Origin: Kiloniella litopenaei
GTDB taxonomy: Bacteria; Pseudomonadota; Alphaproteobacteria; Kiloniellales; Kiloniellaceae
Length of the DNA: 42,230 bases
NCBI RefSeq assembly: GCF_000982415.1
Contig: NZ_LANI01000034.1
Span: 1-42,230 of the forward strand
Reading direction: 5' to 3'
This document shows positions 20,591-24,110 of the stretch, piece by piece (positions within the stretch are counted from its first letter, which is position 1; the number at the start of each line of letters is the position of its first letter). The position numbers and the translations under genes are program-made. The notes under the pieces were generated by a model. The model was not told the DNA's origin, did no database searches, and saw only the letters and a program-made list of their open reading frames with translations.

Positions 20591-20715
20591 GTGTTTTCAG
20601 TTCAAAGCGGGCCAAAGCTGCTTCGAAGTTATTTTTGTGTGATTGACCTTCTATGGCATTGCGTCTGATAGAGGAGAAGGTAAAGTGGTTTCTCGTATAA
20701 CCTATGAGGGCCGCT

Positions 20716-21858
20716 ATGACCGACAAAAAGATCACAACCGGAATTCGTAAAAATCAAGATCAGCAGTCCAAGGTTCTGGACCGCAGGCAAGCTCTTGGTG
20801 CTTTGGTCACAGCGGGTGTCGCGACACTTGCTGCCCCTGCAGTTGTTAAGGCCCAGGATACGATAACCTGGAAGATGGCCATGAGCTGGCCCCGTAACTC
20901 GCCCGGTGTGGGGATGAATGCCCAACGATTGGCCGAGATGATTACAACAATGTCCGGTGGTCGCTTGCAAGTTGACGTCTATGCAGGTGGAGAGCTGGTT
21001 CCCCCCTTTGAAGTTTTTGACGCGGTTTCAAATGGTGTTGCCCAGATGGGGCACGCAACCCCTTATTATTGGCAGGGGAAAGACAAGGCCTTTCATTTTT
21101 TTACGGGTGTTCCTTTTGGCTTGAGTGTTGCTGAATACACGGGGTGGCTTTATTTCGGCGGTGGTCAGGATCTTTGGCAAAAGGCCTATGAACCTTTTGG
21201 TGTTTTACCTTTTTATGCTGGATCTTCCGGGCCGCAGGCCGGGGGGTGGTTCCGTAAAGAAATCAACAGTCTGGAAGATCTGCAAGGCATCAAGATGCGT
21301 ATTGCGGGACTTGGCGGTGAAGCCATGAGGAAGTTGGGTGTGAATGTTGTTTTGATGCCACCGGGTGAAATTTTTGCGGCTATGAAGTCCGGTACTGTTG
21401 ATGCTGCGGAATGGGTTGGCCCCTGGAACGATATTGCCTTTGGTCTTTATAAAGTAGCGAATTATTACTACATGCCTGCCTTCCATGAAATTGGCCCCGC
21501 GCTGGAAGCAACAGTGAACAAAGCTGCGTATGATGCTTTGCCTGATGACTTGAAAGAGATTGTTAAGCGCGCAGTTATGGCATCGGCGAATGAAAGTTAC
21601 GCTGATTTTACCTATGGCAATGTAAAGTCTTTTGAACCCCTGTTGGCAAAAGAAGGTGTTGAGCTACGCCAATTCCCGGATGATGTGATGAAGGCGCTCT
21701 ATAAAGCGTCGGAAGAAACACTCACTGAAATCAGCGAAACAAGCCCGTTGGCAAAAGAAATTTTCGATAGTTTTGTTGCCTACAGGAAAGAAGCTAATAG
21801 CTATGCCAAAGCATCTGAACTTGCGGCGCTTAAAATGCGCGCCAAAGCTATGGAGTAG
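20716..21858 (+). CDS. TRAP transporter solute-binding protein (DctP/TakP-like)
   Basis: This periplasmic binding protein (380 residues) has a twin-arginine-like signal (DRRQALGALVTAG, cleavage near VVKAQ). The fold is DctP; MKMRIAGLGGE-type and PPGEIFAAMKSGTVDAAEWVGPWND segments resemble TakP-like binders of 2-oxo acids or other monocarboxylates. I chose the ATG at 20716, 5 bases after GAGGG; an in-frame ATG at 20704 is the longer choice. No DctQ or DctM genes adjoin it; the only TRAP permease in the window is at the far right edge. Confidence 0.9.
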   Translation: MTDKKITTGIRKNQDQQSKVLDRRQALGALVTAGVATLAAPAVVKAQDTITWKMAMSWPRNSPGVGMNAQRLAEMITTMSGGRLQVDVYAGGELVPPFEVFDAVSNGVAQMGHATPYYWQGKDKAFHFFTGVPFGLSVAEYTGWLYFGGGQDLWQKAYEPFGVLPFYAGSSGPQAGGWFRKEINSLEDLQGIKMRIAGLGGEAMRKLGVNVVLMPPGEIFAAMKSGTVDAAEWVGPWNDIAFGLYKVANYYYMPAFHEIGPALEATVNKAAYDALPDDLKEIVKRAVMASANESYADFTYGNVKSFEPLLAKEGVELRQFPDDVMKALYKASEETLTEISETSPLAKEIFDSFVAYRKEANSYAKASELAALKMRAKAME

Positions 21859-21916
21859 ATGTGAAAATAGCCTTTTATTCTTGATAGGGGTGTGAAACCG
21901 ATAACTTGTATTTTTA

Positions 21917-21937
21917 AAATGTTATAATATAACTATT
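21917..21937. promoter_or_regulatory. Zur box upstream of the DUF1007-NicO operon
   Basis: The core GTTATA-A-TATAAC (21921-21933) is a perfect 6-bp dyad with one central base. With its flanks (AAT before, T after) it fits the Zur consensus of proteobacteria closely. A -10-like TATAAT lies within it, so zinc-loaded Zur bound here would block the promoter. It is about 70 bp before the GTG start of the DUF1007 gene. Confidence 0.75.
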
Positions 21938-22003
21938 GTCGTTTTGCCGTCATAATTTTATGTAACATGAAATGACGATTGGCCCTTAAAGGAAAAGGTT
22001 AGA

Positions 22004-22693
22004 GTGATTTTTTGCATACGCAAGAGCATGCGCTGGATTAAAAGAAGTTGGAGACAGGTATTTCGTACGAGTCTTTTGCTTATCTTATTTTATCCTTCTT
22101 ATGCGCAATCCCATCCGCATGTTTGGGTTGATGCTGCGGTTATTATTCATCGGAATGATGCTGGTGAAATATCGGCGCTGGAACCTGTTTGGATTTTTGA
22201 TGATCTCTATACAGCATCTTTGTTGCCTGATTTGGATCAGGACCAAAGTGGTGAAGTAGAGAAAGCAGAGCTATTGACCTTTGCTCGCGATGCTATTGGA
22301 AACTTGCAGGAGTGGGATTATTTTTTGAAGGTTAAAAGGGATGATGAATTCGGTCCTCTTTACAGGAAAGAAATAATCGCTGATGCAGATGTATTAAACA
22401 ATCGCCTTTTGTTGAGGTTTAAGCTGGATCTTGAAAAACCGGTTGCTCTTGGAACTTCTGTCCAGATGCAAATGTATGATCCGTCCTATTTCATTGCCAT
22501 GGATGTTATCGAAAATCATGCGGTTTCTTATCTTCCGGCGGCGATGAATGCCTGTACTCATAGTGTTACCCATCCAGATGATAATCTAGAGGACGGAACG
22601 ACGCTTTCCGATTTGGTCTTCAGCGATGAAGAAGTGGCACAAAATCCTGATTTAGGATCAATTTTTGCCAAGACGGTGACCGTTACATGTTAA
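22004..22693 (+). CDS. DUF1007 family periplasmic protein
   Basis: This 229-residue exported protein has a signal segment (about 18-36) and a mature start SHPHVWVDA, the conserved histidine-containing N terminus of DUF1007. The remainder includes FDDLYTASLLPDLDQDQSGEV, with an EF-hand-like Asp-rich loop. DUF1007 genes usually precede NicO-type metal transporters and are thought to help them as periplasmic metal-binding partners. It starts with GTG, 5 bases after AAGG. It overlaps the next gene by 7 bp, and an upstream Zur box points to zinc. Confidence 0.88.
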   Translation: MIFCIRKSMRWIKRSWRQVFRTSLLLILFYPSYAQSHPHVWVDAAVIIHRNDAGEISALEPVWIFDDLYTASLLPDLDQDQSGEVEKAELLTFARDAIGNLQEWDYFLKVKRDDEFGPLYRKEIIADADVLNNRLLLRFKLDLEKPVALGTSVQMQMYDPSYFIAMDVIENHAVSYLPAAMNACTHSVTHPDDNLEDGTTLSDLVFSDEEVAQNPDLGSIFAKTVTVTC

Positions 22694-23673
22694 AATCATT
22701 TAGACTAAACACAAAGTTTGCCGCAGCTATTTTCAGTGTCTTGGTTCTCTTGTTCTTATTGGCTGGGATTACTGCATTACTTAATGTTTTTTCTGTCGAA
22801 GATCAGTCTTTAATTGATTTTGCGCTGAATGAAATTCGCCTCCAGCAAAGAAGTTTTTCAGACCTTTTGGGGCAGGGTGTACGGGCGCTTGGGGATGATA
22901 TCGGTTTTGATTCTGTACTTTATCTTGTCTGGATTTGCTTTCTTTATGGAATATTCCATGCCCTGGGACCCGGCCACGGGAAAGCTGTTATTGCCAGCTA
23001 TACCTTGACCACGGACACCAAGGTTTTACCCGCAGTATTATTATCCATGGCGTCCTCTTTTGTTCAGGGACTAACTGCCATAATAATCGTTGGGGCATGT
23101 TATTTTCTTTTGGAAACAAGCGTACGTAGTACATCGCTCGCAATTGAGGATGTAATGGAGCCACTTAGTTATGGTGCTGTTACGATTGTCGGACTTGTTC
23201 TGATTTGGCGTGGTATCAGGGGTGGCGGCCATGCAGGATGCGGGCACGATCATAGTGGAGATGATGCAGGAGGGCATCATTCTTGTTGCGGTCATAAAAA
23301 AGGTAAGTCGGAACCTGCCTCTGTTGAGGTGAAAGCAAGCAAACGGGATCTGGTTGCAATCATTCTCGCTATTGGTATTCGGCCTTGTACAGGGGCGTTG
23401 CTTGTTCTCATTCTCGCATTTGTTCTTGGGCATTGGGCGGGGGGCTTGGCCGCGGTTATGGCAATGTCTTTTGGTACTGGCATAACGGTGTCTCTTTTGG
23501 CGATTGGTGCACGTGGTATTCGCTTTCCGCTGATGAAAATCATGGATGAAATTGGCGTACATGTGGGGTATTTCGGACGCTATATTTCCCTGCTTGGGGG
23601 GATCGTTATCGTGGTGATTGGCCTGTTTCTTTTGGCTGATACACTAATGACACCCAAACATCCATTCGGCTAA
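22687..23673 (+). CDS. NicO-family (nickel/cobalt type) metal transporter, probably zinc
   Basis: This 328-residue inner-membrane protein has about six or seven helices. The family signature FHALGPGHGKAV is at about 96-107, and IRPCTGALLVLILAF marks the second half. Between them is a His/Cys-rich cytoplasmic or periplasmic loop (AGCGHDHSGDDAGGHHSCCGH) suited to metal binding. RcnA and NicO relatives move nickel or cobalt, but the Zur box ahead of this operon makes zinc uptake or homeostasis the better guess here. It is translationally coupled to the DUF1007 gene. Confidence 0.88.
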   Translation: MLKSFRLNTKFAAAIFSVLVLLFLLAGITALLNVFSVEDQSLIDFALNEIRLQQRSFSDLLGQGVRALGDDIGFDSVLYLVWICFLYGIFHALGPGHGKAVIASYTLTTDTKVLPAVLLSMASSFVQGLTAIIIVGACYFLLETSVRSTSLAIEDVMEPLSYGAVTIVGLVLIWRGIRGGGHAGCGHDHSGDDAGGHHSCCGHKKGKSEPASVEVKASKRDLVAIILAIGIRPCTGALLVLILAFVLGHWAGGLAAVMAMSFGTGITVSLLAIGARGIRFPLMKIMDEIGVHVGYFGRYISLLGGIVIVVIGLFLLADTLMTPKHPFG

Positions 23674-23792: not shown

Positions 23793-24110
23793 ATGTCGGA
23801 TTTATTTAAACAGGCATTTACTGTTGCAGGTATGATTGGCTTCGTTTTTTTGACCTTTCTTGGCATGTCAATTATTACGGGGCACTTCAACTCTATTCTG
23901 TTAAAGCAGCGCAAATTCTGGAAAGATCTTTGCGGAGGCCGAGGGGATGCACCTGTTTGTATTCTGGCAATAACGGCCCTTGGATTAGTTGTTATCGGAT
24001 ATGGTGTTGAAAGCCCGTGGATACTGGGCGTTGGCCTGAGTACAACGGTGTATTGTTATATTAAATACAGGGAAACAACGGTTACTGATCCCTTCGATGA
24101 TAAGGAGTAA
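23793..24110 (+). CDS. Small membrane protein of unknown function
   Basis: This is a 105-residue protein with three likely membrane segments (about 8-30, 55-70 and 72-88) joined by a basic loop (LLKQRKFWKDLCGGRGD), and an acidic C-terminal tail. GAGGACGAGT precedes the ATG, a good ribosome site. I do not recognise the family. It follows the NicO gene by 119 bp on the same strand and may or may not share its transcript. Confidence 0.7.
   Translation: MSDLFKQAFTVAGMIGFVFLTFLGMSIITGHFNSILLKQRKFWKDLCGGRGDAPVCILAITALGLVVIGYGVESPWILGVGLSTTVYCYIKYRETTVTDPFDDKE

Follow-up and report, generated by a model that had tools for sequence, protein, structure and literature searches.

A conserved Zur-type box ahead of a DUF1007-NicO gene pair in Kiloniella litopenaei points to a probable ZevAB-type system for zinc scavenging

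In the marine bacterium Kiloniella litopenaei, a DUF1007 gene and the NicO gene that follows it probably make up a ZevAB-type system, repressed by Zur, for scavenging zinc. The pair lies in a stretch of 42,230 nucleotides (contig NZ_LANI01000034.1), referred to here as the window, and a short palindrome stands in front of it. The initial annotation of this DNA had read the palindrome as a Zur box and the pair as a likely zinc transporter. That reading was largely right, and it is less novel at the level that a NicO protein can serve zinc; a system of the ZevAB type has been reported but is little understood. What is new is a mechanistic lead, namely a predicted N-terminal histidine in the mature DUF1007 protein that resembles the arrangement in the anglerases. 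The positions of the features are collected in Table 1.

Table 1. Features of the DUF1007-NicO operon and of the fused frames (window coordinates, except for the fused frames, which are numbered within their own loci)
Feature	Position	Strand	Remarks
-35-like TTGTAT	21906..21911	+	inferred promoter; 16 bases upstream of TATAAC
Zur box (putative) GTTATAATATAAC	21921..21933	none	exact genus conservation; overlaps -10 region
DUF1007 (ZevA-like) exported protein gene	22004..22693	+	GTG start; alternative ATG 22028
His-Pro-His codons	22112..22120	+	predicted mature N-terminus, cleavage after AQS
EF-hand-like loop DQDQSGEVEKAE	22235..22270	+	between two predicted helices
NicO (ZevB-like) membrane transporter gene	22687..23673	+	PF03824, E 4.9e-20; model pLDDT 83.9
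HALGPGHGK motif	22957..22983	+	His91 and His97 invariant, 55/55
His/Cys-rich loop	23221..23340	+	between predicted helices
RPC motif	23380..23388	+	Cys234 invariant, 55/55
Fused DUF1007-NicO frame, Stappia	L239 3053-4996
Fused DUF1007-NicO frame, Pseudovibrio	L249 2978-4897
Fused DUF1007-NicO frame, Roseibium	L276 2891-4837

The box is a perfect 13-base palindrome and the sole match with up to two mismatches in a scan of the window, in which about 1.1 such matches were expected. None of 300 order-1 simulated windows contained an exact copy, and the probability of one in the 145-bp intergenic stretch, at the stretch's own 30% GC, is about 6e-5. Upstream, in the same orientation, lies a gene for a DctP-type TRAP binding protein (20704-21858). 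A palindrome about 70 bp before the DUF1007 gene and enclosing TATAAT had been claimed, and this was exact: the end of the box is 70 bases from the GTG start and 94 bases from the alternative ATG, and TATAAT occupies 21923-21928. The claimed fit to the Zur consensus also held, since the box matches GTTA-5N-TAAC, a pattern that an excerpt of a Caulobacter paper describes as conserved in the Zur sites of many proteobacteria (PMC4176598). The TTG of the -35-like element is invariant in all eight aligned genus promoters, and this, together with its spacing to TATAAC, suggests that the -10 element would lie beneath the box; the TTGTAT/TATAAC pair was not among the predictions of a promoter scan of the window. 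In the 4.31-Mb genome, of which the window is contig 28, the exact box occurs once. At one mismatch, five places were found for the box against 14 for a reversed control pattern, so that by itself the motif shows no genome-wide enrichment at this level.

Conservation of the box in orthologous promoters had been proposed as a test in the initial annotation, and the outcome was in favour of a Zur site, with full conservation in the genus and conservation in only a minority of loci beyond it. The exact box stands upstream of DUF1007 in all eight genus members having the gene; in a ninth genus genome, which is 77% complete, DUF1007 was not found. In the alignment of the eight promoters the two arms do not vary, nor do a few bases next to them, whereas the centre is A, C or T, and in three members (G042, G043 and G047) the flanks and the spacing have diverged around the invariant arms. 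Across the nine genomes there are 10 exact copies of the box, eight of them upstream of DUF1007, and five of the reversed control pattern. The two remaining copies, in G046 and G049, are located inside a lipoprotein-like hydrolase gene (the two loci being L286 1510-1522 and L287 1540-1552), and by this location they are probably incidental. The closest named relatives by NicO, among the matches listed, were Kiloniella spongiae (75%) and Kiloniella sp. EL199 (73%). The same-genus genomes G049 and G046 encode the identical DUF1007 proteins, which identifies the genus as Kiloniella. Upstream of DUF1007 in 22 other loci of the same order, the exact box was found in none (30 of 32 matches were scanned, comprising the eight genus members and these 22; G024 and a second match in G056 were left out).

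We extended the scan to 188 loci and to 79 of 80 named loci, reading at most 450 bp ahead of the His-Pro-His codons in each, which gave 260 distinct loci after seven duplicates were removed. The named loci were the best 80 of at least 574 NicO relatives in a NicO-alignment search, and the one not used (L248) is without DUF1007. A class search supplied 102 rows (90 new, three already in the set, nine left out) and a phylum search another 102 (68 new, 11 already in the set, 23 left out). Among the 260 distinct DUF1007 loci the box was exact in 17, had one mismatch in five and two mismatches in six. Four control palindromes gave no exact and no one-mismatch copies in the same loci and two to four copies with two mismatches, and about 0.025 exact matches would be expected by chance in 266 upstream stretches. 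Box-positive loci include L162, L177 and L180 from genomes of another class, two uncultured Photobacterium loci with one mismatch (L258 and L270), and two alphaproteobacterial loci, L065 and L097, whose upstream regions have 60-65% GC. We placed the label of zero to one mismatch (24 rows) on a FastTree tree of 244 of the 267 DUF1007-NicO rows (23 were dropped for having no adjacent or typical NicO, and duplicates were kept). At least 10 changes of the label were needed, which implies repeated gain or loss of the box. The box as a family-wide feature of DUF1007 was rejected, because most of the 260 loci are without it.

The same genome encodes a Zur-like protein (PRK11639, E 1.9e-36; 125.4 bits, under the cut-off of 167). 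Its gene adjoins znuC and znuB and is divergent from znuA; the matches of znuC and znuB fall just under the NCBIfam cut-offs and that of znuA is over its cut-off. A related site, GATATGTTATAACATTTAC, lies in the zur/znuA intergenic region. The window box is one of the five genome places within one mismatch. A near-copy lies between the divergent genes folE (GTP cyclohydrolase I) and hisI (L004 1501-1513; G000:C34:121996-122008), both of which are Zur targets elsewhere. Another precedes an SBP_bac_5 ABC operon (L005 1501-1513; G000:C85:136928-136940), whose binding protein matches NikA and CntA at scores under the cut-off, so that the operon possibly serves metallophore-type metal uptake. The site GTTATAACATAAC (L012 about 1970-1982; G000:C1:280969-280981) stands about 20 bp upstream of a BtuCDF/FecCDE-like ABC operon, probably a second zinc importer comparable to the znuGHI of Caulobacter (PMC4176598). 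The last of the five places is upstream of a 259-aa frame. A literature search covering titles and abstract openings of open-licence papers found no link between Zur and DUF1007. Taken at the level of sequence, Zur control of the DUF1007-NicO operon is strongly supported by the conservation in the genus, the recurrence in other lineages, the fit to GTTA-5N-TAAC and the near-copies at genes of the zinc-starvation type.

The first gene of the operon encodes a DUF1007 protein (PF06226, E 5.6e-47) and overlaps the NicO gene by 7 bp. An exported protein with an N-terminal SHPHVWVDA had been claimed, and the product indeed reads YAQ-SHPHVWVDA in its N-terminal region, with export predicted. The His-Pro-His triplet is present in 188/188 loci and in 78 of the 79 named loci, and of 259 distinct DUF1007 sequences, 243 satisfy the -3/-1 rule of signal peptides for a cleavage just before it. 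An EF-hand-like pattern is found at the same place in 87 of these 259 proteins and nowhere else in them; the loop in the window protein is a possible site for calcium or another metal. Structure alignments comprised 57 (A4) and 54 (A5) of 73 related loci, plus the window. When the DUF1007 model was searched with Foldseek, the best match was 9gce, a metal-binding Ang-1 domain (E 1.8e-4), at a modest TM of 0.32-0.36. The next Foldseek matches were domains of ligand-gated channels or similar beta-sandwich domains, as were all 50 VIA rows listed, which did not include 9gce. Three points go beyond the initial annotation: the His-Pro-His that is invariant where the mature protein is predicted to begin, the possible anglerase-like fold and the gene fusions.

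The NicO-family permease with a His/Cys-rich loop was likewise found as described, with six His and three Cys in the 44 residues counted. At position 205 the window's NicO has Lys, where 54 of 55 aligned proteins have His. NicO is directly downstream of DUF1007 in 171/188 loci and in 74 of the 79 named loci, and in three of 267 loci the two are fused in one open frame. NicO is followed in the window by a gene for a 105-aa protein (23793-24110) that has hydrophobic stretches and matched neither Pfam nor NCBIfam, and by an agmatinase-like gene.

The nearest known counterpart is ZevAB of Haemophilus influenzae, in which we take ZevA to be a DUF1007 protein and ZevB a NicO protein, a make-up that we assume to define the system. 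By this layout the window pair is of the ZevAB type, as its DUF1007 gene is adjoined by a NicO permease gene. Excerpts of reviews describe ZevAB as a zinc system aiding zinc acquisition or low-zinc growth (PMC8000910, PMC10563805, PMC3872050), so the likeness would extend to a zinc role under limitation, and the earlier remark that the family is not usually credited with zinc was overstated. A Pasteurellaceae study names a "zinc transporter binding subunit ZevA" (PMC12616744), and another paper gives HI1248 as "Nickel/cobalt transporter" (PMC3877243). An Aggregatibacter pair of the same layout, the one used for the comparison, is homologous to the window pair at low identity (DUF1007 24%, E 7e-11; NicO 29%). 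No ZevA or ZevB model matched the window proteins in the NCBIfam search. In contrast to Kiloniella, the Pasteurellaceae-like loci scanned lack a Zur box of the window kind, the best match having three mismatches in all five; they are called Pasteurellaceae-like from one locus that is 64% identical to Aggregatibacter kilianii.

The anglerases, which carry Ang-1/Ang-2 domains and HupE/UreJ-2, share several properties with DUF1007. They have an N-terminal His after signal cleavage (predicted for DUF1007) and a coupling to a metal permease, which the three fusions recall; a beta-rich fold may also be common to both, going by the modest structural match given above. The permease differs, being NicO and usually a separate gene here and HupE/UreJ-2 (PF13795) in the anglerases; no C-terminal domain of the latter kind is joined to the window's DUF1007 protein, whose partner is encoded by a separate NicO gene. 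In comparison with the anglerases, DUF1007 has an additional invariant His3, Asp30 and two Cys. A point against the zinc model is the preference for Cu reported for those Ang domains that have been characterised; Ang-1 was slightly destabilised by Zn. ZrgA, a zinc-binding protein of Vibrio cholerae, serves an ABC importer and in this is unlike DUF1007; a comparison of DUF1007 with all PDB chains, including ZrgA (8EZW, 8F1B), gave no sequence match indicating a relation.

The metal is likely zinc rather than nickel on genomic grounds. We considered nickel against the organism's own genome, and the search gave no urease alpha, no NiFe hydrogenase large subunit and no NicO gene beyond that of the window. 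Predicted Zur control, a single NicO gene and the lack of matches for the two nickel enzymes together favour zinc. An importer of nickel or cobalt, as the NicO name implies, with Zur control being incidental or serving to replace zinc by another metal, would be in line with the sole NCBIfam match of the permease, the nickel/cobalt efflux model PRK10019 (E 1e-7), although the score of 31.5 bits is far under the cut-off of 195. It would also agree with the NikA-like binding protein encoded by another near-box operon, and most DUF1007-NicO loci are without the box, so that other metals may be carried by the family at large. Given the conserved Zur box and a genome in which neither urease alpha nor NiFe hydrogenase was found, however, we regard a nickel or cobalt importer as improbable here. 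A chance AT-rich -10 region or a site of another regulator could produce a palindrome with TATAAT inside it in a stretch of such low GC, and the absence of enrichment at one mismatch would fit this. Yet the arms are invariant in the eight genus members where the flanks diverge, the box recurs before DUF1007 in other lineages, even in GC-rich upstream regions, and its label changes many times on the tree; we consider this explanation very unlikely.

The direction of transport is a separate matter, and NicO might export metal, or the pair might only buffer periplasmic zinc. RcnA, a nickel/cobalt exporter that is regulated by RcnR and for which we know of no DUF1007 partner, is related to the window's NicO by Pfam family, and the efflux model matched above is of this kind, at a score much below its cut-off. 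Moreover, Zur can act also on an export system, as reported for Pseudomonas (PMC9827704). On the other hand, a box over the presumed -10 element fits repression, genes made in zinc-poor cells would be expected to gain zinc, and the available accounts of ZevAB speak of acquisition or growth at low zinc. Export or buffering is thus unlikely in our judgment, and we infer uptake.

If the pair is a zinc-scavenging system, zinc-loaded Zur would bind the box over the -10 region in zinc-replete cells and block transcription, and the operon would be expressed when zinc is poor. On export of the DUF1007 protein, cleavage of the signal peptide directly ahead of His-Pro-His would expose a histidine as the new N-terminus. 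This His1 may then form an accessible site, in which His3 and/or Asp30 or Asp123 probably take part, that captures periplasmic zinc, which DUF1007 would pass to NicO to be carried inwards. More tentatively, and with somewhat less than even confidence, we suggest that DUF1007 is a family of metal "fishing" proteins with an N-terminal His (His1-Pro2-His3 with Asp30 or Asp123), placed beside or fused to NicO in the way of the anglerases with HupE/UreJ-2. Such a protein could have become part of a dedicated zinc importer where Zur took the operon over, repeatedly among alphaproteobacteria and also in one or more other classes.

The usual name for NicO proteins is nickel/cobalt transporter, and the relatives of the window's NicO are numerous even in one scan. 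The conserved Zur box sets apart some of the DUF1007-NicO pairs, and for these a reading as zinc scavengers is to be preferred. For DUF1007, a family of unknown function, the invariant His-Pro-His offers a concrete candidate site for metal, and it ties ZevAB to the anglerases, a recently described group. If true, the reading of an N-terminal His that fishes for metal would give ZevAB its missing mechanism.
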